From a virus, in the IMG/VR virus record IMGVR_UViG_3300032163_001980, positions 1 to 27,618 of that record: DNA of 27,618 bases. One strand, given 5' to 3'. A program made the translations under genes and the position numbers. Below, piece after piece: positions 1 to 25,702 of the stretch. Positions within the stretch are counted from its first letter, which is position 1. The number at the start of each line of letters is the position of its first letter. The notes under the pieces are model-generated. The model saw nothing but the letters and a program-made list of their open reading frames with translations. It made no database searches and had not been told where the DNA came from.

Positions 1-747
1 TCAGTAGACGCCAATCAGCTTGAGCCCTGCGATGACGAGGACCAATCCGAGCGCCTTGAGAACCATGGGCACGGCGAACCGAATGCCGAGCGTGGTCCCG
101 ATGACGGCGCCGACCAGGACCGCGCCGGCATAGAGCGGCAGGTCGGGTGGCAGAGATTTGACGATCGCGACATTGCCCAACAGTCCCGCGATCGAATTGC
201 AGAGGATGAACACGGCCGCGACACCGGACGCGGTCCTCGTCTCCGACCATCCGAGAAACAGCACGAGTGGCGATAGGAAGATACCGCCGCCGGTTCCAGT
301 CAAACCTGAGAGGAGCCCAATGGCGGCTCCGCATGCGATGCCGATGACGATCGGTGGGTCACGAGGTTGTTGGTTGGCGCTCAGTTCCTTGGGCCACAGC
401 AATCTTACGCCCCCGATGAGCAGCACGACCCCGACAATCGGTCTGTAGTAGGCGCCGGGCAGTTGGATGGCGCCGCCGAGGAACGCGAAAGGGATTGCCC
501 CCACCAGGAATGGCCAGAGCGTGCGCCAGCGGAAGAGTCCGGCATTCAAGTAGCGGAACGACGTGAAGCCGGCGACCAGAATATTGAGCGCGAGCGCCGT
601 AGGCCGCATCGCAGCTGGCGCGACGCTGAAGAGTGCCATCAATGCGATGTAGGCTGAAGCGCCGGCATGCCCTACCGACGTGTAGAGCGCCGCACCCAAC
701 AGCATGCACGCGGCAAGGAGCAGTTCAGTAGTTAGAAATTCGGGCAT
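1..747 (-). CDS. TauE/SafE (TSUP) family membrane permease
   Basis: This is an integral inner-membrane protein of 248 aa, the usual size for the TauE/SafE (TSUP) family, whose members move sulfite, sulfonates or other small organic anions. The sequence is almost entirely hydrophobic helices, about eight by eye. It has the internal duplication typical of the family: a glycine-rich GHAGAS stretch near the N-terminus and a better-preserved GLTGTGGGIFLSP motif in the second half. The ATG at 747 is preferred over a TTG at 762. The stop codon lies exactly at the window edge. The gene points away from the phage genes and shares only a 136-bp upstream gap with them, so it is probably a flanking host gene, or else cargo. 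The substrate cannot be told from sequence. Confidence 0.88.
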   Translation of the reverse strand: MPEFLTTELLLAACMLLGAALYTSVGHAGASAYIALMALFSVAPAAMRPTALALNILVAGFTSFRYLNAGLFRWRTLWPFLVGAIPFAFLGGAIQLPGAYYRPIVGVVLLIGGVRLLWPKELSANQQPRDPPIVIGIACGAAIGLLSGLTGTGGGIFLSPLVLFLGWSETRTASGVAAVFILCNSIAGLLGNVAIVKSLPPDLPLYAGAVLVGAVIGTTLGIRFAVPMVLKALGLVLVIAGLKLIGVY

Positions 748-821
748 GGCGCGGCACGACAAAATCGCGCCCAGAGGCGCTTTGGATGGAATAGCCCACG
801 AACCGTCGTGCCGGTGATTTG

Positions 822-883: not shown

Positions 884-2275
884 ATGAAATCTCGCTTGCC
901 CGACGCGGTCGAGCACTGGCCGCTCGACCGGCTGATTCCCTATGCGCGGAATGCCCGCACGCATGCGGACGACCAGGTCGCGCAGATCGCGGCCTCGATT
1001 GTCGAGTTCGGCTGGACCAATCCGATCCTGGTCGACGCGGAGGGCGGGCTCGTCGCTGGCCACGGCCGGCTGCTTGCGGCACGCAAACTCGGCCTCGACA
1101 CGGTGCCCGTTGTCGTTCTCGATCACCTGACACCGGCGCAGCGACGCGCCTACGTCATCGCCGATAACAAGCTCGCGCTCAACGCCGGCTGGAACGAGGA
1201 ACTGCTGGCGGCCGAGCTGCACGCGTTGAACGGCGAGGGCTTCGACCTTGCGCTCACCGGATTTTCCGAGACGGAGCTCGATGCGCTCATGGCGCCGCTC
1301 GGCGAGGAGACGGAGGGCAGCGATGGTAGCGGCGAGGACGCCGCCGATGAAATGCCGGCACCGCCCCGCGCGCCGATCTCGCGCACCGGCGATCTCTGGC
1401 TGATTGGCAATCACCGCCTGCTGTGTGGCGACAGCACGGATGCTTCGGCCATCGCGCGGGTCATGAACGGCGAGCGCGCGGCGCTCGTTTTCACCTCGCC
1501 GCCTTATGGCAATCAGCGCGATTACACGACCGGCGGCGTGGGCGATTGGGACGCGCTCATGCGCAGGGTGTTCGCGGAATTGCCGGTCATCGAGCCGGCG
1601 CAGGTTCTGGTCAATCTCGGTCTCATTCACCGCGACAACGAGTGGCTGCCGTACTGGCAGACCTGGCTCGCATGGATGGCGGAGCAAGGCTGGCGGCGGT
1701 TCGGACTCTATGTCTGGGACCAGGGGCCAGGACTTCCGGGCGATTGGAACGGGCGCTTGGCGCCTGCATTCGAGCTCGTCTTCCATTTCAATCGCAAGGC
1801 GCGCAAGCCCAACAAGATCGTGCCCTGCAAATGGGCCGGCCACGTCAACGACACGCACGGCGGCATCCGGCACAAGGACGGCCACGTCGGCGAATGGAAT
1901 CACGCGGGACAGGGCGTCCAGGAGACGCGCATCCCCGACAACGTCATCCGCATCACGCGGCACAAGGCGCGCGGGATCGAGACCGAGCACCCGGCCGTGT
2001 TCCCGGTTGCGCTGCCCGAGTTTGTGATGCGCGCCTACAGTGGCAACGGCGATATCATCTACGAGCCCTTTTCCGGCGCGGGCACCAGCATCGTGGCGGG
2101 CGAGCGCACCGGCCGAAAGGTCAGAGCGATCGAGCTCGCCCCCGAATATGTCGACCTCGCCATCCTGCGGTGGCGGAAACTCTTCCCGGACAAATCAGTG
2201 ACCCTCGATGGCGAAGGCCAATCCTTCGAAGCAGTCGCGCGCGAGCGCGGCGTCGCAATCCTTGACGCCGTCTGA
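884..2275 (+). CDS. ParB-domain DNA methyltransferase, beta-class (copy 1, TSPPY)
   Basis: This 463-aa protein is a predicted N4-cytosine or N6-adenine DNA methyltransferase. An N-terminal ParB/sulfiredoxin-like domain (about residues 10-140, with AGHGR at 58-62) is followed by an acidic linker (about 140-160) and a methyltransferase domain. Catalytic motif IV is TSPPY (204-208) and the SAM-binding motif I is EPFSGAGTS (394-402). The order IV then I is that of beta-class enzymes. The TS variant in place of D at motif IV is seen in a number of m4C enzymes, but specificity cannot be assigned. It is immediately followed by a paralogue. Such pairs are common beside terminase genes in alphaproteobacterial prophages, where they probably modify phage DNA against host restriction. 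No cognate nuclease gene is adjacent. Confidence 0.9.
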   Translation: MKSRLPDAVEHWPLDRLIPYARNARTHADDQVAQIAASIVEFGWTNPILVDAEGGLVAGHGRLLAARKLGLDTVPVVVLDHLTPAQRRAYVIADNKLALNAGWNEELLAAELHALNGEGFDLALTGFSETELDALMAPLGEETEGSDGSGEDAADEMPAPPRAPISRTGDLWLIGNHRLLCGDSTDASAIARVMNGERAALVFTSPPYGNQRDYTTGGVGDWDALMRRVFAELPVIEPAQVLVNLGLIHRDNEWLPYWQTWLAWMAEQGWRRFGLYVWDQGPGLPGDWNGRLAPAFELVFHFNRKARKPNKIVPCKWAGHVNDTHGGIRHKDGHVGEWNHAGQGVQETRIPDNVIRITRHKARGIETEHPAVFPVALPEFVMRAYSGNGDIIYEPFSGAGTSIVAGERTGRKVRAIELAPEYVDLAILRWRKLFPDKSVTLDGEGQSFEAVARERGVAILDAV

Positions 2276-3512
2276 CTCGCTGCAGGTCGAGCTATGGCCG
2301 ATCGAGCAGCTCTTGCCATACGCGGCCAATGCGCGGACCCACCCGGGCGAGCAGGTTGCTCAGATCGCGGGATCGATTGCGGAGTTTGGTTTCAACGTTC
2401 CCTGTCTCGTGGACGACCGCGGCGTGTTGATCGCAGGCCATGGACGGATCGTCGCCGCGAAGCGTCTCGGACTGAAGCAGGTTCCGGTTATTCGGCTGGG
2501 GCACCTGACCGACGCCCAGGCGCGCGCCTTCCGGCTCGCCGACAATCGCATCGCGCTCAACGCCGGCTGGGACGAAGCGATGCTGGCTGCCGAGCTCGAT
2601 CGTCTCAAGGAAGACGGCGTCGATCTCGATCTACTCGGCTTTGCCGAGGACGAGCTCGACCGGCTGCTCGATGGCCTCGATCAAAATGGGTCATCCGAGG
2701 AAGAGGACGAAATCCCGGAACCGCCCACCGAGGCGGTCACGCGCCCAGGCGACCTTTGGCTGCTCGGGGCGCATCGGCTCTTGTGTGGCGACGCGACGGT
2801 CGCGACCGACGTTCAACGGTTGCTCGCTGGCGTGCGTCCACACCTGATGGTGACGGACCCGCCCTACGGCGTCGAGTACGATCCGAACTGGCGGAACGAA
2901 TCCGGGGTTTCCGAGACGGCTCGTGTCGGCAAAGTCAGCAACGATGATCGCGCCGATTGGCGCGACGCCTGGAGTCTGTTTCCGGGCGAGGTCGCCTATG
3001 TCTGGCACTCCGGGGTCCACGCGCGGACCGTTGCCGAGAGTCTCGATGCTTGTGGCTTCCTGATCAGGGCGCAGATCGTATGGGCCAAGCCCCGCCTGGT
3101 GCTGAGCCGCGGCGATTATCATTGGCAGCACGAACCGTGCTTCTACGCGGTGCGAAAGGGCGCCACCGGCCATTGGCAGGGCGCCCGCGACCAATCGACT
3201 CTCTGGACCATCGCCACCGGCGAGAACGACGAGGCCACCGAGCACGGGACGCAGAAGCCGGTCGAGTGCATGCGCCGGCCGATCGTGAACAACAGCGCGA
3301 AAGGTGATCTGGTCTACGAGCCCTTCGCAGGTTCAGGCACGACACTGATTGCCGCGGACTCCGTTGGCCGCGTTTGCCTCGCACTCGAAATCGATCCGCG
3401 CTACTGCGACGTCGTCATCGAGCGCTGGCAGCGCCATGCAGGAGTCGCAGCCACGCTTGCCGACGACGGTCGCACCTTCGATGCGCTGAAGAACGAGCGG
3501 TTAGCCGCATGA
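2208..3512 (+). CDS. ParB-domain DNA methyltransferase, beta-class (copy 2, DPPY)
   Basis: This 434-aa paralogue has the same architecture as the preceding gene. It has a ParB-like domain (about 25-155, AGHGR at 76-80), an acidic linker, motif IV DPPYG (217-221), HGTQKPVE (346-353) and SAM motif EPFAGSGTT (371-379). The canonical DPPY suggests N6-adenine or N4-cytosine methylation with a different target from copy 1. The ATG at 2208 overlaps the end of copy 1 by 68 nt. A TTG at 2262 is the only other in-frame candidate before conserved sequence begins, and neither has a clear Shine-Dalgarno, so the exact start is uncertain. The pair looks like an old tandem duplication that has diverged strongly between motifs IV and I. 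Confidence 0.9.
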   Translation: MAKANPSKQSRASAASQSLTPSDSLQVELWPIEQLLPYAANARTHPGEQVAQIAGSIAEFGFNVPCLVDDRGVLIAGHGRIVAAKRLGLKQVPVIRLGHLTDAQARAFRLADNRIALNAGWDEAMLAAELDRLKEDGVDLDLLGFAEDELDRLLDGLDQNGSSEEEDEIPEPPTEAVTRPGDLWLLGAHRLLCGDATVATDVQRLLAGVRPHLMVTDPPYGVEYDPNWRNESGVSETARVGKVSNDDRADWRDAWSLFPGEVAYVWHSGVHARTVAESLDACGFLIRAQIVWAKPRLVLSRGDYHWQHEPCFYAVRKGATGHWQGARDQSTLWTIATGENDEATEHGTQKPVECMRRPIVNNSAKGDLVYEPFAGSGTTLIAADSVGRVCLALEIDPRYCDVVIERWQRHAGVAATLADDGRTFDALKNERLAA

Positions 3513-13131: not shown

Positions 13132-13562
13132 CCAGCAAGCGAGAACAGGTGCTCGACGCGATCAAGACGCTGATCGCGTCCGCGCTGCCCAATGCGGAGG
13201 TCAAACGCAATCTGGCGAAGCCCGAGCGCATCCCGCCTGGCGGTCTCGTCATCCTCCGTGACGGTGATCCGGGCGAGCCGGAAGTCATCCTTTCGCCGCT
13301 CATCTACGTCTACTCCCACCGCATCCCGATCGAGATCGCAGCGTACGAGACGTCGAGCCAAACCCGTGAGCAGGTGCTCGACGGCATGCTCGGAGCGATC
13401 GGCACAGCCGTCGTTTCCAACCGGACGCTTGGCGGCCTCTGCGACTTTGTCGAGGCCGAAGCGCCGGCAACGGAAGACGTCGAGACGACTGGGGCGCGCG
13501 CGGGCCGCTGGGCTGACGTCGCAATCCTCGCGGTCTACGGCACGACCGACCCGCTGAACTGA
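13128..13562 (+). CDS. Tail terminator-like minor tail protein (gpU position)
   Basis: This 144-aa protein lies just before the tail tube gene, the place of the tail terminator (gpU) in lambda. It has an N-terminal helix (REQVLDAIKTLIASALPNAE), a PGGLVILRDGDPGEPEVIL beta region, a YVYSHRIPIEIAAYE strand and a helix REQVLDGMLGAIGTAV, ending with a WADVAILAVYGTTDPLN strand. This alpha/beta pattern suits tail terminator proteins that cap the tube. It overlaps the tiny membrane ORF through ATGA. Homologues are sometimes labelled 'acyl-CoA transferase', which nothing in the sequence supports. Confidence 0.75.
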   Translation: MTSKREQVLDAIKTLIASALPNAEVKRNLAKPERIPPGGLVILRDGDPGEPEVILSPLIYVYSHRIPIEIAAYETSSQTREQVLDGMLGAIGTAVVSNRTLGGLCDFVEAEAPATEDVETTGARAGRWADVAILAVYGTTDPLN

Positions 13563-13587
13563 ACTCCCTCAATCATCGGAGACTCTC

Positions 13588-14529
13588 ATGGCACGCGCGC
13601 GCGGCGCCAACGCCGTCATGGCTGCGGCATTCGAGACCACCTATGGCACGGCCCCTGTGTCGGGCTTCAAGAAGCTACCGTTTGTGTCCTCGGCGCTGGG
13701 CGACGAGCAGAACCTGATCGCGAGCGATCTCCTGGGTTACGGACGTGAGCCGCTGCCGCCGAGCCGCGACGTGGTCAATAACGATGGTGACGCTGTTATT
13801 CCCGTCGATCTGAGGAATTTCGGCTATTGGCTCAAGCTCCTGATGGGTGCGCCGACCTCCGTCGACAATTCCGGCGTCATCACCCACACCTTCGTGTCGG
13901 GCGCACTGACGCTTCCCTCGATGGCGATCGAGATCGGCATGCCGGAAGTGCCGAGCTACGGCATGAACGTCGGCGTCCGCGCCAACACGATGAAGATTCA
14001 GCTGCAGCGGTCGGGGCTCCTCAACGCCACCATGAGCCTGATCGCGCAGGGCGAAACCAAAACGACCTCGTCGTCTGCCGGCTCGCCTAGCGAAGCCATA
14101 ATTGAGCGCTTCTCCCAGTTCATGGGCGAGATCAAGCGCAACGGCACGGCACTCGGTCATATCGTCTCGGCCGAGCTCACCTACGCTAACAATCTCGACA
14201 AGGTCGAGGTCATCCGTCCCGATGGCCGCATCGAGGACGCCGACCCCGCCATGGTCGCCGTGACCGGCAGCGTCAACGTGCGGTTCGCCGACACCGTGCT
14301 GCTCGATCAGGCGACGTCGGGCGATCCATGCGAGCTCTCATTCGGCTGGGCGATCGACGCCGACAATTCGCTGCTGTTCACGGTTCACAGCGCTTTCCTG
14401 CCGAAACCCAAGACACCGATCCAGGGGCCGGGCGGCATCCAGGCGGCCTTCGCCTGGCAGGCCGCCAAGGATCCGACCCTTCTAAAGACCTGCACCGCGG
14501 CGCTGATCAACGACGTCGCCGCCTACTGA
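13588..14529 (+). CDS. Phage tail tube (major tail) protein
   Basis: This 313-aa protein is the likely major tail tube subunit, polymerised around the tape measure. It starts MARARGANAVMAAAFETTYG with GGAG at 13578-13581, 6 nt upstream. It then has the FKKLPFVSSALGDEQ strand, RNFGYWLKLLMGAPTS, and a long run of alternating hydrophobic strands (SMAIEIGMPEVPSYGMNVGV, MKIQLQRSGLLNATMSLIAQ). The C-terminal half (SAELTYANNLDKVEVIRPDG, then SVNVRFADTVLLDQ) could be a second tube-like or Ig-like domain. It precedes the chaperone frameshift pair and tape measure, the conserved order in long-tailed phages. Confidence 0.88.
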   Translation: MARARGANAVMAAAFETTYGTAPVSGFKKLPFVSSALGDEQNLIASDLLGYGREPLPPSRDVVNNDGDAVIPVDLRNFGYWLKLLMGAPTSVDNSGVITHTFVSGALTLPSMAIEIGMPEVPSYGMNVGVRANTMKIQLQRSGLLNATMSLIAQGETKTTSSSAGSPSEAIIERFSQFMGEIKRNGTALGHIVSAELTYANNLDKVEVIRPDGRIEDADPAMVAVTGSVNVRFADTVLLDQATSGDPCELSFGWAIDADNSLLFTVHSAFLPKPKTPIQGPGGIQAAFAWQAAKDPTLLKTCTAALINDVAAY

Positions 14530-14541
14530 CGGACCGCAAGC

Positions 14542-14952
14542 ATGACCAAGGTCAAATCCAAGCCGTCATCTGACGGCACTCCTCGTTCGAATGCCCGGAT
14601 GCTCAAGCTCGCCTTCGATCGCGAGCCGATCTGGCTCGACGTGATTCCCGGAGTCCGCGTCCAGTTTCGACCGATATCGGTCGCCGCAATCCTGATCGCG
14701 CGCACTGCTGCCGCCGACGTGCTGCGCGCCGGTGGTGACGACGTGATGGTGAAAGCGGGCGTCGCTTTCACGAATTCGCTCGCGCATTCCGGAATCGCCG
14801 CCTGGGAAGGCATCGGGGATGCTGACGGCAATCCGGTCGAGCCGACCAGGGAGACGATCGATGCGGCGCTTGAGCACTGGCCGGTGTTCGACGCGATCGA
14901 TCGCCTCTATGTCGGCCCCGCTCTGATCCAGGACGCGGAAAAAAACGTCTGA
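14542..14952 (+). CDS. Tail assembly chaperone, zero-frame product (gpG-like)
   Basis: This 136-aa protein precedes the tape measure, as gpG does in lambda, and ends in the zero frame at a TGA (14950-14952) just after a slippery heptamer. It is compact and mainly helical: LAFDREPIWLDVIPGVRVQF strands, RPISVAAILIARTAAADVLR helix and a C-terminal helix VFDAIDRLYVGPALIQDAEK. It is thought to bind the tape measure with its longer frameshifted partner and recruit tail tube protein, and to be absent from finished virions. The identification rests on position, size and the frameshift signal rather than close family motifs. Confidence 0.85.
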   Translation: MTKVKSKPSSDGTPRSNARMLKLAFDREPIWLDVIPGVRVQFRPISVAAILIARTAAADVLRAGGDDVMVKAGVAFTNSLAHSGIAAWEGIGDADGNPVEPTRETIDAALEHWPVFDAIDRLYVGPALIQDAEKNV

Positions 14953-14984
14953 TCGCCCTCGCCGAGTGGCACTTCGGCGGGGGC
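14940..14984 (+). promoter_or_regulatory. Programmed -1 ribosomal frameshift signal
   Basis: The heptamer A AAA AAC (14940-14946) lies in the correct phase for the zero frame (GAA AAA AAC GTC TGA). After an 8-nt spacer comes a stem of 11 pairs with one G-U: GCCCTCGCCGA (14955-14965) with TCGGCGGGGGC (14974-14984) and an 8-nt loop. The zero-frame stop lies inside the spacer. The -1 frame stays open for a further 102 codons up to the TAG at 15252-15254. All the parts of a classical bacterial and phage -1 signal are present with ideal spacing. Confidence 0.9.
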
Positions 14985-15254
14985 GACGGTTATTGCGCCG
15001 CTTGCCCCGAAACCTGCGCCGCCTGTCCGTATCTCGAACACGCGCCGCAAACGCCGGACGGCATTACCGCCTGGGCTGTACTCCAGCGCGCGGCCGGACA
15101 GGTCCGCGCCGTCATGGGCGGCGTCTACTCGCTCGATTTCGGCGCCGTGCTGCTGCTCGCCGAGGCGATGGGCGCCCTCAACACGCTGCTCATCGAACTC
15201 CTTCCCGAGGTCGAACCGATCATCGTTCGCGCTTACGGCCGGAATAACGAATAG
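14946..15254 (+). CDS. Frameshift extension of the tail chaperone (gpT-like part of gpGT)
   Basis: This 102-codon open frame has no start of its own and continues the chaperone as join(14542..14946,14946..15254), giving a 237-aa GT fusion. It begins RLIALAEWHFGGGDGY and carries the cysteine cluster CAACPETCAAC. The second half, AGQVRAVMGGVYSLDFGAVL followed by LAEAMGALN, resembles the conserved core of DUF1799-type T proteins (aromatic or Arg residue, Gly, then LDY/LDF). The TAG abuts the tape measure ATG. Third-position GC bias continues in this frame, supporting real coding. The ATG at 15115 lies deep inside and is not a sensible separate start. Confidence 0.85.
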   Translation, partial: RLIALAEWHFGGGDGYCAACPETCAACPYLEHAPQTPDGITAWAVLQRAAGQVRAVMGGVYSLDFGAVLLLAEAMGALNTLLIELLPEVEPIIVRAYGRNNE

Positions 15255-18200
15255 ATGAGCACGACCCAGGTTTCGATCCGTCTCGGCGTCGAGGGCAAGG
15301 CTGACGTCAAGCGCGCGTTCGAAGAAGTCGGCAAGGCCGGGCAGGATGCATTCCGCGGCGTCGCAGCCGATATGGATGCAACGGGCGCTGCCACCGATCG
15401 CCAGGCCCAGCGTCTTCAGCGCCTGGCGGAGGCCGCGCGACAGGCTGGCGCCGCCGACCAGTCGCAGCGCAGTTTCAACCAGGTCCTCGGCGTTGGCACC
15501 GCGCAGCCGAAGTCGGCGCGCGAGTCGGCCGCGGTGTTCGAGGAAACCGCCAGGGCCGCAGAAGACCTGGAAGCCAGAACCTCGGCGCTTCGTGCGCAGA
15601 TCGATCCGCTCGGGACGGCGCAGAAGAAGCTCAACACCGACGTCGCGGAAGCGGGCTCGCTGTTCAAGGCAGGCGCGATCACGCAGGCGGAGCATGCGGC
15701 GGCGGTCGCGCTTGCCAACAGCCGCTACAGGGAAGCCGCCAGCGTCATCGAGAAGTATGGTGGCAGCGCGGCGCTCAGCACGAACCAGGTCCTGGTCCTG
15801 GGCTCGGCCGCGCGGCATACGGTCGACGCGCTTATTTCGGGCCAAAGCCCGATGCGGGTTCTGACCGTCGAGGGCATCAAGGCCTCTGCGGCCTTGGGCG
15901 AAGGCGGACTGGGCGGACTTCTCAGGGGCGTTTGGCAAGGCCTCACCGGCCTGATCACGCCCACGATGGCAGTGGTTGCCGGCATCGCGGCAATCGGCGC
16001 CGCGGTCGGCTACTCCTATTACCGCTACATTGAGTCGCAGAAGGAACTTGAGGTCGCGCTCGGGGGTACCGGCCGAGCCGCCGGCGCGACCGTCGGCCAG
16101 GTTGAGCGCATCGCCGAGCAATCGGCTTCGGCCGGCAAGGTCTCGGTCGCCGCCGCGCGCGAGATGGAGGCGGCGTTCCTGCAGACCGGCAGGATCGCGG
16201 TCTCGAATTTCGACGGCCTGATCAAGGTCGCGAAGAATTACGCGGCAACCACCGGCACCGACGTTGCGACCGCCGCCAAGGAACTGGCGGGAGCGTTTGC
16301 CGACCCGATCAAGGGCGCCGACGCGCTCAATGCCAAGCTCAACTTCCTCGACGACAAGACCCGGCAGTATGTCCGCACGCTTGCCGACCATAACGACCGC
16401 ACCGCCGCGCAGCGGGTGCTGCTCGATGCGCTCAAGGGCAGCCTCATCAACGCGGCCGATGCGACCACGGCGCTTGGCCGCGCCTGGGATTTCGTCGGGC
16501 GCATGGCGTCGAATGCCTACGACGCGCTCGGCCGGGGGATTTCGCGTGTCCTCGACGGGGCGCCGATTGAGGAGCGGCTCAAAGAGCTTCAGCAGGAACG
16601 CGCGCGCCTGCAAGCGCTGATCGCGAACCCGCCCACGCGTTTTGCCGCCCAGGCCCGCAACTTCAACACGCGGATGCTGGCGGAGGTCGATGCCGAGATT
16701 GCCAAGATCGAGGCCAAGCTGGACGCCATCCAGGTCCGCGCCAAGGAGGCAAGGGCCAACGAGCTGTCGGTTCGTGCCGGCAGCGTGGCGCGCGACCTCA
16801 CGCCCGGCTTTGAAGAGCTGCAATCGCTGAAAGCGCGCGAGGCGCAGATTCGCACCGCGCTCGACGACCCGCTCGCACGCCAGAAGGTCGCCGATCTCAA
16901 GCAGGTCGAGACCGCCTATGATGCGGTGACGCGAGCGATCCTGACCTGGCTCGATCCGGCCGATAAGGCCCGCCGCCTCGACGAACTCGAAATCCAAGCT
17001 CTTGCCGCCAAGACCCCGGCCCAGAAGGCGGCAATTGCGGAAGAGCGGCGGCGCGTCGAACTCGCCGGCCAGGCGATTCCGGTCGCAATCGCCGAAGCCG
17101 ATATCACGCGTGCCGGCACCAAGGCGCGCGCCGAGGCAACGCAGGCGCTGATCGACCAGGCGCGCGTCCTCGACGTCAACACCAAGGCGACCATTGGCCT
17201 CGCCGAAGCTTGGCTGAAGGGTGCCGCCGCCGCCCAGCAGGCGGAAGCCCGCCGCAAGGCGCTCACCGAGGCGGTGCAGAACGGCGTCGACGTCGACACC
17301 CGGGCCCGCGACTTGCTCCGGGAACAGATCGCCGAGCAGGCGGCGCAATCGGCGAAGTCCGTCAACGACCTTGGCGCCGAGTCGGCCGCGCAGCGGCGGC
17401 TCAACGACGCAGTTTTTGCTGGCCGGCTCTCGACCGAACAGGCGCAGCGGCAGATGCAGGTCGAACAGGCGCTGCGCCCGCTGATCGTCGCGCAATCGCT
17501 CGCCGAGGGCGATGCAAAAAGCACGCTCGGCCGCGTCATCGATGCGCTGCGCGGCGCTTATGCGAGGCTCCATGGCGAGCAGGCCCGTGCCGCGGCCCTG
17601 CAGACTCTGGAAGGCCAGAGGAACCAGGTCGAGCTCTTACAGAAGCAGATCGATCTTGCGGGCATCGGGGAATCGCAGCGGGCGATCATCATTGCGCAGC
17701 TGCAGGTCGAGCAGCAGCTCCGCCAGAAGGGCGTCGACCTTGCCAGCGCCGAAGGCCAGGCGATCCTCGCCAATGCCGGCAACATCGAACGCCTCAACCA
17801 GTCGCTCGCCCGTTCGCAAGGCGCGATGCAGTCCCTGCAGGGCATGACCGACACGACCTTCAATCATTTCGCGACGCTGATTGCCGAGGGCAAGATGGAC
17901 TGGAAATCGTGGGCCGATGCCGGGCGCGCGGCGCTCGCCGATATCGAGAAGGAAATTCTCAAGCTTGCGGTTCTCAATCCGCTCAAGAACTTCATCTTCG
18001 GCACCAACCTCATGACGCTCGATAATGTCGGCGGCCTGCTCGGCAGCCTGTTCAAGGGGGGACTGAAATTCCACGAGGGCGGAGTCGTCGGCGTCGACGG
18101 AACACCGACCTTTGTGCCGGCGGGCGTGTTCCGCAACGCGCCCCGCTTTCACGATGGTGCTTTCCTTTCGCCCGACGAGGTGCCGGCGATCCTGCAACGC

Positions 18201-18377
18201 GGCGAGCGGGTGCTGAGCCGCGACGAGGCGCGCGGCTACGGCGCACGCGGTTCAATGGCGACGCCGGTGATCAACGTCACGATCCAGACGCCAAGCCCCT
18301 CGGCGTTCCAGGCGAGCCGCACCCAGGTGGCCGCCGACCTGGCGCGTGCGGTGCGGATGGGCATGCGCGGAAGCTGA
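15255..18377 (+). CDS. Tail length tape measure protein
   Basis: This 1040-aa protein is long, Ala/Gln/Glu-rich and mostly helical, as expected for the rod that sets tail length. The N-terminal region up to about 210 includes STNQVLVLGSAARHTVDALI and GQSPMRVLTVEGIKA, typical of lambda-type tape measure proteins (TMP_2). A hydrophobic stretch at about 227-256 (LTGLITPTMAVVAGIAAIGA) could cross a membrane at DNA ejection. Coiled-coil-like heptads dominate 430-850. The C-terminal part (KMDWKSWADAGRAALADIEK, then FHEGGVVG and EVPAILQRGERVLSRDEARG) resembles the lambda tape measure C-terminus. Scaling from lambda (853 aa, about 135 nm) suggests a tail near 160 nm, an inference. It starts right after the GT stop. 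Confidence 0.95.
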   Translation: MSTTQVSIRLGVEGKADVKRAFEEVGKAGQDAFRGVAADMDATGAATDRQAQRLQRLAEAARQAGAADQSQRSFNQVLGVGTAQPKSARESAAVFEETARAAEDLEARTSALRAQIDPLGTAQKKLNTDVAEAGSLFKAGAITQAEHAAAVALANSRYREAASVIEKYGGSAALSTNQVLVLGSAARHTVDALISGQSPMRVLTVEGIKASAALGEGGLGGLLRGVWQGLTGLITPTMAVVAGIAAIGAAVGYSYYRYIESQKELEVALGGTGRAAGATVGQVERIAEQSASAGKVSVAAAREMEAAFLQTGRIAVSNFDGLIKVAKNYAATTGTDVATAAKELAGAFADPIKGADALNAKLNFLDDKTRQYVRTLADHNDRTAAQRVLLDALKGSLINAADATTALGRAWDFVGRMASNAYDALGRGISRVLDGAPIEERLKELQQERARLQALIANPPTRFAAQARNFNTRMLAEVDAEIAKIEAKLDAIQVRAKEARANELSVRAGSVARDLTPGFEELQSLKAREAQIRTALDDPLARQKVADLKQVETAYDAVTRAILTWLDPADKARRLDELEIQALAAKTPAQKAAIAEERRRVELAGQAIPVAIAEADITRAGTKARAEATQALIDQARVLDVNTKATIGLAEAWLKGAAAAQQAEARRKALTEAVQNGVDVDTRARDLLREQIAEQAAQSAKSVNDLGAESAAQRRLNDAVFAGRLSTEQAQRQMQVEQALRPLIVAQSLAEGDAKSTLGRVIDALRGAYARLHGEQARAAALQTLEGQRNQVELLQKQIDLAGIGESQRAIIIAQLQVEQQLRQKGVDLASAEGQAILANAGNIERLNQSLARSQGAMQSLQGMTDTTFNHFATLIAEGKMDWKSWADAGRAALADIEKEILKLAVLNPLKNFIFGTNLMTLDNVGGLLGSLFKGGLKFHEGGVVGVDGTPTFVPAGVFRNAPRFHDGAFLSPDEVPAILQRGERVLSRDEARGYGARGSMATPVINVTIQTPSPSAFQASRTQVAADLARAVRMGMRGS

Positions 18378-20404: not shown

Positions 20405-23400
20405 ATGGCCTCCCTCGTCTTGTCGGTCGCCGGCTACGCGGTCGGCGGGCCGATCGGCGCGCTCGTCGGTGCCTTCGCCGGAAAGTTCATCGACCAGCAA
20501 ATCTTTGCGCCGGGGCCGACCCAGAACCAGGAGGAAGGCCCGCGGCTGACCAGCCTGTTCGTCACGTCCTCAAGCGAGGGCGCGTCGGTCCTGCGCGTCT
20601 ACGGCCGCATGCGGGTGAGCCCGCAGATGATCTGGGCCACAAACTTCCGCGAGGTCGTCACCACATCGACGAGCACGCAGGGTGGTGGCGGCAAGGGTGG
20701 GGGCGGTGGTGGCGGCCAGACCGTCACCACGACGACGACGACTTACACTTATTTCGTGTCGTTTGCGCTCGGGCTTTGCGAAGGACCGATCGTCGATATC
20801 GGAGGCGTCTGGGCGGACGGCAAACCGCTCGACATGTCGCAGTTCACCTGGCGGCTCTACAAGGGCGACGCAAGCCAGGGCGCCGATCCGAAGATCGAAG
20901 CCGTCGAGGGCGCCGGCAACGTGCCGGGCTTTCGCGACTTGGCGTACCTCGTGTTCGAGGAAATGCCGGTCGAGAAATTCGGCAACCGCATCCCGCAGAT
21001 CACCGTCGAGGTAATCCGCCGCCCGAGCGCCATGGGCGTTCGCCTCGAGGACATCCTGACCGGCGTTACGCTCATTCCGAGCCTTGGCGAGTTCGCCTAC
21101 GCGACCGACACGGTCTATCGCGACGATGGGTTCGGCCACACGATCGCCGAGAACCGGCACGGCAGCGTCGGCAAGGCCGACTTTTTGGTTTCGCTTGATC
21201 AACTGCAGTCCGGCGCCCCAAACATCGACACGATCTCGCTCGTCGTCGCATGGCATGGCACCGATCTGCGCTGCGGCAACTGCCAGATCAAGCCGAAGGT
21301 CGAGTTCAGCGCGAAAGCCACGACGCCCTGGAGCTGGCAGGTCTCAGGGCTTGGCCGCGCGAGCGCCGATGTCGTCTCGTCCGACAGTTTCGGTCCGCTG
21401 CTCGGGGGCGCGCCGGCCGACCGCGCGGTGGTCCAGGCCATCACCGAACTCAAGGCGCGCGGCTTCCGCGTCGTGCTCTACCCGTTCGTCATGATGGATG
21501 TCTCGGCGGGCAACAGCCTGCCGAACCCCTACAGCAACAATGCCGCGACCAACGGGCAGCCGCCGTTTCCCTGGCGCGGACGCATCACCTGCTCGCCGGC
21601 ACCGGGATATACCGGCACCGTCGACAAGACCACGGCGGCGGCAAGCCAGGTGGACGCCTTCTTCGGCAGCGCGGCGCCATCGGACTTCGGCGCCTGGAAC
21701 GGCGACACGATTCCCTACAGCGGACCCAACGAGTGGTCGTACCGCCGGCTGATCCTGCACTACGGCAAGCTCGCCGTCGCGGCGGGCGGGGCAGACGCGT
21801 TCCTGATCGGCTCCGAGATGGTCGCGCTCAATGCGGTGCGATCGAGCGCGTCGGCATTCCCGGCGGTCTCGAAGATGGTCACGCTCGCAGCCGACGTGAA
21901 AGGCATCGTCGGCGCCGGCTGCAAGGTCGGCTATGCGGCGGACTGGAGCGAATACGCCAACTTCCGGCCGAGCGACGGCTCGAATGACGTCTATTTCCAC
22001 CTCGATCCGCTCTGGGCCGATTCACACGTCGATTTCATCGGCGTCGACAATTACATGCCACTGTCCGACTGGCGGTCGGGCCGGCTGCACCTCGATGCCG
22101 AGGCCGGCGCGCCGTCGATCTACGACCAGGGTTACCTGCAAGGTAACATTGAGGGCGGCGAGTTGTTCGACTGGTTCTATGCGTCGAGCAACGACCGCAA
22201 GACGCAAACGCGGACCAACGTCACGGATGGCGCCTATGGCAAGCCGTGGGTCTTCCGCTACAAGGATTTTTATAGCTGGTGGACGAACCAGCACTATGAC
22301 CGCCCCGGCGGCGTCGAGAGCGTCTTGCCGACCGCCTGGGTGCCGCAGTCAAAGCCGATTTGGTTTACCGAGTTCGGCTGCCCGGCGATCGACAAGGGCG
22401 CGAACCAGCCGAACGTCTTCTACGACCCGAAATCGTCCGAGAGCTTCTTTCCGTATTTCTCGACCGGCCGCCGCGACGACCTGATCCAGCGCGCGTTCCT
22501 CGAAGCGCACCTGATCTATTGGGAGCCGGCGAACGGCCATAACCCCACGTCCTCGGTCTACGGCGCGCCGATAATCGACCGCGCCTCGATCTGGGCCTGG
22601 ACCTGGGACGCGCGACCCTATCCGCAATACCCGAACAGTTCGCTCGTTTGGCGCGACGGGCCGAATTGGCGGCGCGGCCACTGGCTGACCGGCCGCCTGG
22701 GCCTCGTCACGCTATCGGACGTGGTCGCCGAGATTTGCGCCGGGCTCGGTGTCTCGATCGATGTGTCCGGCATCAACGGCATCGTCCGTGGGTATCTCAT
22801 CAATAACATCATGAGCCCGCGGTCGGCGCTTGGCCCCCTGATGCAGCTCTACTTTTTCGATGCCTGCGAGACGAACGGCCTGATCAAGTTCGTCCAGCGT
22901 GGCGGGTCCCCGGTTGGGAGCTTTTCAATCGACCAGTTGGTCGACAGCGGAAATGACAGCAAGGGGGTCTATAGCCTGACGCGCGCGCAGGAGACCGACC
23001 TGCCGCGCACCGTGCATCTGCAATTCCTCGACCCAGACAACGATTTCCAGGCCGCCGACGTTTATGCCCGCCGGCTGCGCGGATCGAGTGCCAAGACCAT
23101 CGAATTGCAGCCGGCCATTGTGTTCGACTTCGCCGAGGCACAGGGCATCGTCGACACGCTGCTCGTCGATGCCTGGGTGATGCGAGAACGCTCGGAGCTT
23201 ACGCTTCCGCCGTCGGCCTTTGCGATCGAGCCGACCGACGTGGTCAATCTCGATCTCAACGGCCGCATTTTCCAGATGCGCGCCGACTCCGTCGGGTTCG
23301 AACGGATTAGGCCTGCAAAACTCGTCCGCACCGACGAAGCAACCTACGGCGCCTCGGACGGCCCGCCACCGACGCGGCAACCGAAGCCGATCATCGAGCC

Positions 23401-24346
23401 CGGACCGGCAGCCCTTCAGATCATGGACCTGCCGATCCTGACGCCGACCGAGGTCCCCGGCGTTCCACGTCTCGCCGCCTACGCCGAGCCATGGGCACGG
23501 GTGAACGTGTTCCGATCGCCCACGACCAGCGGCTACCTGCTCGACCAGCTCGTCATCAACCGGTCGACAATCGGGAAGACGCTGTTCGATTTCTATTCCG
23601 GGCCGCTCTGGAACTGGGACATGGCAAACAGCCTCTATGTCCAGATCCCGTCTAGCCAGGGCTTGTTCTCGCTCGAAGACCTGTTCGTGCTCGCCGGCGG
23701 CAACACCTGCGCGATCCACAACGCCGACGGCCAATGGGAAATCCTGCAATTCGCGACGGCCGAACTTATCGCGGCCGATCAATACAAGCTGACGCGGCTC
23801 CTCCGCGGCCAGCTCGGCAGCGAATACGCCATGCGCAGTCCGGTTGCTGCCGGCGCACCGTTCGTCGTCCTCGATGCCACCGTCATGCAGTCGTCGATCG
23901 CGGTCACCGAGCGGCATAATCCCTGGAACTGGAAATGGGGTCCGTCGACCAAGACCATCGATGACCCGACCTATCAAGTCGTCTCATTCACATTCGACGG
24001 CGTGGGCTTGCGGCCCTACAGCCCAGTGCAGCTCGCAGGCCTCCGCGACCCGAGCACGTCCGACTGGGCGCTCAGCTGGATTCGCCGCACGCGCATCGAC
24101 GGCGACAACTGGGAAGCGCCGGACGTGCCGCTCGGCGAGGAGGTCGAGCTCTACGACGTTGACATCATCAACATCGGCACCGGCGCGGTCCTCCGCACGA
24201 CCCGCGTCGGCCAGCCGAGCTTCGCCTACACCTCGGCCATGCAGGTCGCCGACTTCGGCAGCAACCAGGCCCAGGTGAAATTCACCGTCTACCAGGTCAG
24301 CCTCGCCTACGGGCGCGGCACCGGCACGACCAGAACGGTTCCATAA
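20405..24346 (+). CDS. GTA gp15-like tail tip protein with TIM-barrel domain
   Basis: This 1313-aa protein is the central tail tip (megatron), host-specificity factor, similar in length to GTA gp15 proteins. The N-terminus is a glycine-zipper-like hydrophobic segment (LSVAGYAVGGPIGALVGAFA). A Gly run (about 93-104) then a Thr run (106-113) interrupts the N-terminal domain, probably a surface loop. The middle part holds a GTA TIM-barrel-like domain (about 430-770) with AFLIGSEMVALNAVRS, VDFIGVDNYMPLSDWRSG, KPIWFTEFGCPAIDKGANQP and AHLIYWEPANG, recalling glycoside hydrolases with Glu near FTEFG. Then follow phage_tail_3-like sequence and a C-terminal beta-rich segment with LTRLLRGQLGSEYAM. It begins 3 nt after the NlpC stop. 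Confidence 0.94.
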   Translation: MASLVLSVAGYAVGGPIGALVGAFAGKFIDQQIFAPGPTQNQEEGPRLTSLFVTSSSEGASVLRVYGRMRVSPQMIWATNFREVVTTSTSTQGGGGKGGGGGGGQTVTTTTTTYTYFVSFALGLCEGPIVDIGGVWADGKPLDMSQFTWRLYKGDASQGADPKIEAVEGAGNVPGFRDLAYLVFEEMPVEKFGNRIPQITVEVIRRPSAMGVRLEDILTGVTLIPSLGEFAYATDTVYRDDGFGHTIAENRHGSVGKADFLVSLDQLQSGAPNIDTISLVVAWHGTDLRCGNCQIKPKVEFSAKATTPWSWQVSGLGRASADVVSSDSFGPLLGGAPADRAVVQAITELKARGFRVVLYPFVMMDVSAGNSLPNPYSNNAATNGQPPFPWRGRITCSPAPGYTGTVDKTTAAASQVDAFFGSAAPSDFGAWNGDTIPYSGPNEWSYRRLILHYGKLAVAAGGADAFLIGSEMVALNAVRSSASAFPAVSKMVTLAADVKGIVGAGCKVGYAADWSEYANFRPSDGSNDVYFHLDPLWADSHVDFIGVDNYMPLSDWRSGRLHLDAEAGAPSIYDQGYLQGNIEGGELFDWFYASSNDRKTQTRTNVTDGAYGKPWVFRYKDFYSWWTNQHYDRPGGVESVLPTAWVPQSKPIWFTEFGCPAIDKGANQPNVFYDPKSSESFFPYFSTGRRDDLIQRAFLEAHLIYWEPANGHNPTSSVYGAPIIDRASIWAWTWDARPYPQYPNSSLVWRDGPNWRRGHWLTGRLGLVTLSDVVAEICAGLGVSIDVSGINGIVRGYLINNIMSPRSALGPLMQLYFFDACETNGLIKFVQRGGSPVGSFSIDQLVDSGNDSKGVYSLTRAQETDLPRTVHLQFLDPDNDFQAADVYARRLRGSSAKTIELQPAIVFDFAEAQGIVDTLLVDAWVMRERSELTLPPSAFAIEPTDVVNLDLNGRIFQMRADSVGFERIRPAKLVRTDEATYGASDGPPPTRQPKPIIEPGPAALQIMDLPILTPTEVPGVPRLAAYAEPWARVNVFRSPTTSGYLLDQLVINRSTIGKTLFDFYSGPLWNWDMANSLYVQIPSSQGLFSLEDLFVLAGGNTCAIHNADGQWEILQFATAELIAADQYKLTRLLRGQLGSEYAMRSPVAAGAPFVVLDATVMQSSIAVTERHNPWNWKWGPSTKTIDDPTYQVVSFTFDGVGLRPYSPVQLAGLRDPSTSDWALSWIRRTRIDGDNWEAPDVPLGEEVELYDVDIINIGTGAVLRTTRVGQPSFAYTSAMQVADFGSNQAQVKFTVYQVSLAYGRGTGTTRTVP

Positions 24347-25702
24347 ATGACCGATACGCCCCATCTCGGCATGCCGCTGATCGCGGCAAGCCAGTCGCAG
24401 AAGCACGTCACCCACAACCAGGCGATCGTGATCCTCGATTCGATCGTCATGTTGTCGGTGATCGATTCGACCCACACGGCGCCGCCTGGCTCGCCGGCCG
24501 AGGGCGACCGCTACAAGGTTGCCTCCGCCGCGACCGGCGCCTGGGCGACCTGGGACCTCAACGTCGCGCTCTACACCAACGGCCAGTGGGTCAAGCTCAC
24601 GCCCAGGAAGGGCTGGACCTGCTTCGACGAGGCGACCGGCGCGCTCACGGTCTGGACCGGCTCGGCCTGGACCGACTTCGGGACCGCTGGCGGTTATCTG
24701 ACGTTGACCGGCGCGGGGAACGGTACGCTGACGAAGCTCGGCATCAATACGGCGGCTGACACCACCAACCGCCTCGCGCTCAAGTCCAACGCTGCGCTGT
24801 TCAGCCACGATGACGTGACGCCCGGAACGGGCGACATGCGAATTGTCCTGAACAAGAGCGCTGCCACAAAGGATGCCGCGTTCAATTTCCAGGACGGTTT
24901 CAGCACGCGGGCCCTGTTCGGGCTCTTGGGTGATGACAATTTCACCATCAAGGTTTCGCCGGACGGCTCGACCTTCAAAACTGCGATCGTGATCGACAAG
25001 AGCAACGGTCACATCGGCATCAATGGCTCCCCCGACTCCAACAACTGGCTCGCGGTCAATGCCGATGGCGTCCTCTTCAACAAGGACGCCTCCGGCGACA
25101 TGCGCGTCACGATCAACAAGAGCGCTGCGGCAAAGGATGCAGGCTTCACCCTTCAGGACAACTTCAGCACTCGGGCGCTGTTCGGCCTGCTCGGCGACGA
25201 CAATTTCACCATCAAGGTCACGCCCGATGCCTCGACCTTTTACACGGCGCTGACGATCGACAAGAGCAGCGGCAAGATCGACCACACACAAGGGGCCAAG
25301 TTCTCGGCCTACGTGAACTTTGACGATTACCACGCTGCCGGCGCCTGGGCGAAGATCGGCTTCAACAACGCCAATCACAACGACCAGAACGCGTTCAGTG
25401 CGGCGAATAGCAATTTCGTGGCGCCGGTTGCGGGCTACTACTTCTTCGGCGCGCATTTCGTGTTCAAGAAGAATGCGACGCTGCCGACCGAGGTCGATCT
25501 CGCCCTCTACCTCAATGGATCGATCGTCACGCAATCCGAGGTGTTGACAAAGACTGTCGTTGATGTCGGCACCTTCCTGCACACCACCGCGGTGCTCAAG
25601 CTCAGTGCCGGGGACACGGTGGATGCGCGCATCCAGTTCGTCACCAACGACGGTTACGTGGCCGCCAACACGAACAACTTCTGCGGCGCCCGCATCGCCT
25701 GA
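24347..25702 (+). CDS. DUF2793 tail fibre protein with tandem repeats and C1q-like head
   Basis: This 451-aa protein is a likely fibre or receptor-binding protein. The N-terminal part (1-118, HLGMPLIAASQSQKHVTHNQ, and GLFC-like WTCFDEATGALTVWTGSAW) is DUF2793, common directly after gp15-like genes and probably the attachment domain. Two tandem repeats follow, residues 141-225 and 232-313, sharing FSTRALFGLLGDDNFTIKV exactly. The C-terminus (about 319-451) has the C1q/TNF-like pattern of short beta strands: FVAPVAGYYFFGAHFVF, then VDLALYLNGSIV and TAVLKLSAGDTVDARI. It begins directly after the gp15 stop (TAAATG). The C1q call is by pattern and should be tested by structure prediction. Confidence 0.85.
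   Translation: MTDTPHLGMPLIAASQSQKHVTHNQAIVILDSIVMLSVIDSTHTAPPGSPAEGDRYKVASAATGAWATWDLNVALYTNGQWVKLTPRKGWTCFDEATGALTVWTGSAWTDFGTAGGYLTLTGAGNGTLTKLGINTAADTTNRLALKSNAALFSHDDVTPGTGDMRIVLNKSAATKDAAFNFQDGFSTRALFGLLGDDNFTIKVSPDGSTFKTAIVIDKSNGHIGINGSPDSNNWLAVNADGVLFNKDASGDMRVTINKSAAAKDAGFTLQDNFSTRALFGLLGDDNFTIKVTPDASTFYTALTIDKSSGKIDHTQGAKFSAYVNFDDYHAAGAWAKIGFNNANHNDQNAFSAANSNFVAPVAGYYFFGAHFVFKKNATLPTEVDLALYLNGSIVTQSEVLTKTVVDVGTFLHTTAVLKLSAGDTVDARIQFVTNDGYVAANTNNFCGARIA
24767..25285 (+). repeat. In-frame tandem repeat inside the fibre gene
   Basis: Two roughly 250-bp units encode similar segments of about 83 aa, nucleotides 24767-25021 and 25040-25285. The shared core is nearly identical at the protein level (STRALFGLLGDDNFTIKV), with differences concentrated elsewhere. 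The repeats probably set the length of the shaft and allow unit gain or loss by recombination. Confidence 0.8.

Follow-up and report, generated by a model that had tools for sequence, protein, structure and literature searches.

A conserved candidate -1 frameshift signal of the lambda G/GT type in the tail assembly chaperone gene of a viral record

Main finding

The window, that is, the whole stretch of 27,618 nt analysed here, came from a viral record (IMG/VR IMGVR_UViG_3300032163_001980). Near the 3′-end of its tail assembly chaperone gene (G) lay a site that is, with high probability, a -1 programmed ribosomal frameshift of the lambda G/GT type, through which two chaperones would be produced from one gene. 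As judged from the sequence, this candidate belongs to a known class, of which it is a strong, ordinary example, and its signal is very well conserved. The likeness to lambda gpGT, proposed in an earlier note made from the letters of this DNA, was supported by the profile match of G, its neighbours, and the conservation of the heptamer and the hairpin. The features concerned, numbered by position in the window, were as follows.

13588-14529, + strand: tail tube protein, upstream neighbour (Pfam Phage_tube_2, E 2.6e-57)
14542-14952, + strand: G, tail assembly chaperone, 136 aa (profile match to phrog_313; predicted fold)
14940-14946, + strand: slippery heptamer A_AAA_AAC, in phase (sequence; conservation across 262 loci)
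14950-14952, + strand: zero-frame stop TGA, one codon past the heptamer (sequence; stop distance in clusters)
14953-14986, + strand: hairpin, 13-bp stem 14953-14965/14974-14986, with an optional closing G-U pair 14966/14973 (folding)
14946-15254, + strand: T domain, 102 codons and stop (Pfam DUF7697, phrog_11212, predicted fold)
15255-18377, + strand: tape measure protein, directly after the T stop (Pfam TMP_2, E 3.5e-38)

By the proposed mechanism, most ribosomes would translate G and terminate at the TGA, while some would pause at the hairpin, with AAA and AAC occupied by tRNA-Lys and tRNA-Asn, respectively, slip one base back on A_AAA_AAC, and read on as ...EKN-RLIALAEWHFGGG... into T. The product of the slipped ribosomes would be a GT fusion of 237 aa (135 + 102 residues), as the earlier note had calculated. 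The shift on the ribosome and its frequency are inferred; the assembly roles are assigned by analogy with lambda, in that the tape measure protein would be bound by G, and tail tube subunits would be recruited by the T portion of GT, the rarer product.

The G gene and its neighbours

The protein predicted for G matched PHROG phrog_313, 'Tail assembly chaperone', in a profile search (E 1.2e-8), as did 49 of 51 aligned G homologues at E <= 0.01; no Pfam profile match was obtained for G. Its predicted structure had a pLDDT of 91.0, and of 212 PDB chains realigned with it the best was YqbN 3klu (Z 6.5, rmsd 3.8, 98 aligned), followed by the HK97 tail assembly chaperone 2ob9 (Z 5.8, rmsd 5.6, 97 aligned) and then by a row with Z 3.0, values below 8 such as the first two being ones that may reflect only a common arrangement. 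No hit below E 1.9 came from a Foldseek search of PDB with G, nor did a sequence-profile search for solved structures yield a credible one. The G/T locus sat between the tail tube gene and the tape measure gene, which is the lambda-type placement. Megablast of positions 13500-16000 against phage records found no close DNA relative.

Several other parts of the record were recognizable. A large tail protein at 20405-24346 possessed GTA_TIM, Phage-tail_3, and Rcc01698_C domains, whose names suggest a link with the Rhodobacter gene transfer agent. After it, at 24347-25702, came a DUF2793 protein that has a C1q-like domain at its C-terminus and may be a tail fibre or tip. At 884-3512, two DNA methylase genes (N6_N4_Mtase) overlapped, a ParB_N domain being present in the first, and a TauE/SafE sulfite exporter gene lay at the record end (4-762, minus strand), possibly host DNA at a prophage edge.

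Slippery heptamer, reading frames and stop codon

The zero-frame codons at the end of G read GAA (14938-14940), AAA (14941-14943), AAC (14944-14946), GTC, and TGA (14950-14952). Codon reading thus bore out the earlier note on three points, namely that A AAA AAC at 14940-14946 is in the correct phase, that the zero-frame TGA lies within the spacer (the stem starts at 14953), and that the -1 frame, beginning with CGT at 14946 and ending with TAG at 15252-15254, is open for 102 codons. The same note held that this frame lacks a start codon, which was true up to codon 56; an in-frame ATG follows at 15114 (codon 57). Since no ATG, GTG, or TTG precedes that ATG in the T frame, the T frame was absent from the mechanical list of open reading frames (at least 60 aa).

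The heptamer taken alone is suggestive only, and a single instance in the window proves little, as it could be due to chance. It occurred once in the window, and at least one copy was present in 61 of 100 shuffles; an in-phase AAAAAAC appeared in the 22 main genes of the window in 8.9% of 2000 synonymous recodings, and within the G gene in 4.7%. Those 22 genes contained seven in-phase sites of the type XXXYYYZ, three of which were on a list of slippery types. An AGGA similar to a Shine-Dalgarno (SD) sequence was located at 14930-14933, 6 nt 5′ of the heptamer, and likewise in 33 of 124 clusters of relatives (defined below), while a search of the 20 nt before the heptamer for seven SD-like cores found none of them in 69 of the 124. 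Such an upstream SD-like element, which serves as stimulator in sites of the dnaX type, was not generally conserved over these clusters.

Conservation of the heptamer in related loci

Besides the window, 261 loci were collected, consisting of 183 viral fetches (repeats included), 73 from genomes, and 5 from phages. From the viral T scans came the best 80 matches out of 119 and the best 80 out of 283, so that the sample comprises the less distant viral relatives; one further viral scan (26) and the genome contigs (73) were returned completely, and 5 of the 13 phage records with matches were fetched. Since the 262 loci contain repeat fetches of the same contigs, rates are given per cluster; grouping by identity over a 480-nt context, with the window included, gave 165 clusters at the 99% level, 124 at 90%, and 66 at 80%.

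According to the earlier note, a homologue search should show conservation of heptamer and stem in related phages, and it did so. With the viral T scans represented by their best 80 of 119 and best 80 of 283 matches, a slippery heptamer was present at the shift point in all 262 loci (AAAAAAC in 243, GGGAAAC in 15, AAAAAAA in 4) and T lay in the -1 frame relative to G in 260, and the stem was under selection in the 124 clusters (see below). At the 90% level, the heptamer Lys was encoded by AAA in 116 of 116 cases, versus 40 of the 245 other Lys codons in these G genes, and the GGGAAAC group retained the slippery form with Lys replaced by Gly. The first residue of T was Arg in 124 of 124 clusters; the first base of its codon is the last base of the heptamer, so that heptamers with a terminal C are followed through as CGN, and the four loci with a terminal A have AGG.

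Fusion of T in frame with G, which the earlier note had named as evidence against a shift, was found in only 1 of 262 loci, L094, in which a run of eight A made G and T one continuous frame; its 92%-identical relative L089 has seven. The extra A falls in the run before the T frame, around 2493-2500 of that locus, and the IMG id suggests that L094 is from an isolate genome. This relative may manage without a shift, or it may be broken or mis-sequenced. The second exception to the -1 arrangement, L082, had four single-base gaps relative to the 99%-identical L079, which are probably sequencing errors, and in L076 an indel was misplaced by the ungapped alignment A2.

The phase of substitutions was counted in 1349 of 7626 cluster pairs, those with 3-25% divergence. 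In three stretches upstream of the heptamer, third positions of the G frame received 52-72% of pairwise substitutions. Downstream, third positions of the T frame received 62% in the first nine bases and 98%, 60%, and 55% in the three stretches beyond. Read in this way, the alignments indicate that constraint changes from the G frame to the T frame at the heptamer. Because of the heptamer conservation, this change of phase, and the hairpin described next, a chance origin of the site was rejected.

The downstream hairpin

The earlier note had described an 11-bp hairpin (14955-14965 with 14974-14984) after an 8-nt spacer. The stem was real and included one G-U pair, with two more pairs closing below it to give 13 bp; because of these extra pairs, the spacer is 6 nt to the full stem rather than 8, and it is 7 nt to the conserved core, since the outermost stem pair is poorly kept. 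The usual distance from heptamer to structure in -1 frameshifting is about 5-9 nt. An X_XXY_YYZ heptamer, a spacer of 6-7 nt, and a stable 13-bp stem, by which -1 programmed frameshift sites are recognized, were all present. Folded alone, the 44-nt hairpin stretch gave -30.4 kcal/mol (z -4.6 versus dinucleotide shuffles); in a 141-nt context the same helix formed and the total energy was ordinary (z -0.8; 40 of 200 shuffles folded as well or better).

Across the 124 clusters, the 36-nt hairpin region had a mean energy of -24.8 kcal/mol versus -15.4 for synonymous recodings of the same peptide. The hairpin was more stable than the recoding mean in 123 clusters (mean z -2.59; z above 0 in the remaining one) and within the best 5% of recodings in 106, whereas five control regions further down T had mean z values of -0.22 to +0.36. 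The stability beyond that of recodings is explained by codon choice at Ala-4 and Gly-12 of T: Ala-4 was GCC or GCT in 124 of 124 clusters, though 754 of the 1871 Ala codons in the rest of T were GCG, and Gly-12 was GGG in 103 of 117 Gly, versus 169 of 1062 elsewhere. These comparisons clearly point to selection on hairpin stability beyond codon constraint.

Pairing and covariation were examined in 66 rows, one of them a duplicate, hence in 65 distinct sequences. The stem was paired in 92.1% of cells, versus 42-56% if the structure was slid by 1-3 columns. Classical covariation was weak, since the part of the T peptide encoded by the stem hardly varies. Double-sided changes numbered 18 cells, against a shuffled mean of 10.1, and were confined to 3 of 14 pairs; 15 of the 18 belonged to the outermost pair, itself unpaired in 31 of 65 sequences, and stem pair 19/42 was unpaired in 14 of 65. 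The structure slid by +1 column likewise had 3 double-changed pairs, with 17 such cells.

The T domain reached by the shift

The T domain matched Pfam DUF7697 (E 4.6e-12; 46.1 bits versus a gathering cut-off of 27) over residues 56-98 only (15111-15239), and PHROG phrog_11212 over residues 53-96. The first of these families was matched by 17 of 17 T homologues at E <= 1 and the second by 62 of 64 at E <= 0.01. The part of the window's T that would be read first after the shift, with WHFGGGD and four cysteines, was outside these matches (53-98). As their starts at 53-56 adjoin the ATG at codon 57, it is probable that gene callers had truncated the proteins from which both families were built. 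The T gene annotated in two cyanophage records (locus 1965-2198) starts 40 codons inside a frame opening at 1845.

The four-cysteine motif, C17-x2-C20-x3-C24-x2-C27, occupies T codons 17-27 (14994-15026). In the alignments, which comprised all 64 listed sequences for T and 51 of the 64 for G, residues C20, C24, C27, W8, H9, and F10 were invariant among the T homologues and C17 nearly so, and the CxxC-x3-CxxC spacing suggests a putative metal site. The predicted structure of T had a pLDDT of 89.6 and a pTM of 0.80. A sequence-profile search of T for solved structures gave no credible one, Foldseek against PDB gave nothing below E 2.6 (realigning 50 of those chains gave Z <= 3.2), and comparison of the fold with predicted viral proteins gave no match at E <= 0.001, the best having E 0.015-0.2. 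The predicted viral proteins near T included three 'Tape measure chaperone' entries (E 0.06-0.21), which is suggestive and not proof. No paper on DUF7697 was found, and partial texts on tail assembly chaperones and zinc contained no apparent account of the T module, which leaves its absence from the literature unproven.

Other explanations for the expression of T

Downstream hairpins are used by ribosomal shifting and are unnecessary for polymerase slippage. Transcriptional slippage, in which RNA polymerase would add one A in the seven-A run at 14939-14945 and normal ribosomes would then enter the T frame, is very unlikely here. Runs of A can slip in transcription and one inserted A does give the -1 frame, yet the run in the window is just seven A, whereas the passages available from a recoding paper count A runs of n > 7 as so used (PMC3711429). 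Moreover, fifteen loci have at this place GGGAAAC, which contains no long run, and the conserved hairpin downstream fits ribosomal shifting.

Ribosomes might instead start on T independently, either internally or by re-initiating near the stop of G. In agreement with this, the open T frame had an ATG, GTG, or TTG upstream by more than 10 codons in 60 of 124 clusters and near the shift codon in 2 more, and in two phage records a portion of T is annotated as a short CDS of its own. We consider such independent translation scarcely credible for this locus, since the first T-frame start in the window, codon 57, comes past the most conserved part of T, the first start falls after codon 40 in 52 of 124 clusters and is lacking in one, and the heptamer would be left unexplained.

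That G and T are one continuous gene split by an indel in the A run of the window, as artefact or mutation, has next to no probability and is largely refuted by conservation: homopolymer indels occur, and L094 and L089 differ by one A in the run, but the -1 arrangement in 260 of 262 loci extends to the five phage records and to bacterial genome contigs, and a continuous gene would have no need of selected heptamer codons and hairpin.

Reach of the finding

GT represents a well-supported fused gene that gene callers based on start codons would miss. The natural swaps of the heptamer (AAAAAAC, GGGAAAC, and AAAAAAA) before one conserved hairpin offer a ready test set, which would probe ribosomes of bacteria other than E. 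coli on heptamers ending in C.

A wider reading is tentative and, taken as a whole, rather doubtful: in many phages and prophages, which by their record titles are mainly of Alphaproteobacteria, the shift would be kept weak and locked in place, the hairpin would compensate, and a putative zinc-binding module would be peculiar to GT. On this reading, A_AAA_AAC and G_GGA_AAC would be favoured because the heptamer shares its last base with the invariant Arg codon, which starts there, the strongly conserved hairpin would offset heptamers that are poor in E. coli, and the four-cysteine module, outside the DUF7697 match, would be present only in GT. From the portion available of a survey in E. coli, the best bacterial heptamers permit cognate re-pairing in the A site, and A_AAA_AAC and G_GGA_AAC are of low efficiency, yet very likely used by insertion elements (PMC4066793). 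The chaperone family has mostly these two heptamers, a choice that might suit a rare GT product.

Comparison with known systems

Lambda has the same gene order, and its heptamer is G_GGA_AAG. The window can be likened by description to lambda gpG/gpGT, with a predicted -1 shift close to the 3′-end of G and a predicted fusion to T, but it differs in having another heptamer, a strong simple hairpin, and a four-cysteine stretch that opens T. In lambda, as described in the sections seen of PMC5009743, the T domain is joined to the chaperone by a -1 shift that takes place at low level towards the 3′-end of G, an arrangement widely conserved; the partner of G is the tape measure protein, and T binds the tail tube protein. 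The sections seen of PMC10783043 and PMC11409702 mentioned tail chaperones, and the word 'frameshift' did not appear in them.

Closer relatives were the Rhodobacter capsulatus phages RcOceanus, RcKemmy, and RcMamaDuck, which share 34-35% identity in G and 45-46% in T and have the -1 shift at the same place; in their GenBank records the chaperone is annotated as a joined two-piece CDS. These phages have GGGAAAC whereas the window has AAAAAAC, and in RcOceanus the zero-frame stop is about 29 codons past the heptamer, versus one codon in the window. Among the 124 clusters, the stop was at the window's distance in 45 and 20-59 codons further on in the other 79. A paper on Rhodobacter phages, as far as its text was available, regards a frameshift as usual in these genes and RcZahn as without clear evidence for one (PMC8601537). 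The fold predicted for G aligned with the HK97 chaperone (2ob9) and YqbN (3klu) above all other rows, at a sequence identity of 11%, and for two genes of an HK97-like chaperone cluster a genome-wide study measured shifts of 6% and 7%, as given in the part seen of PMC3711429.
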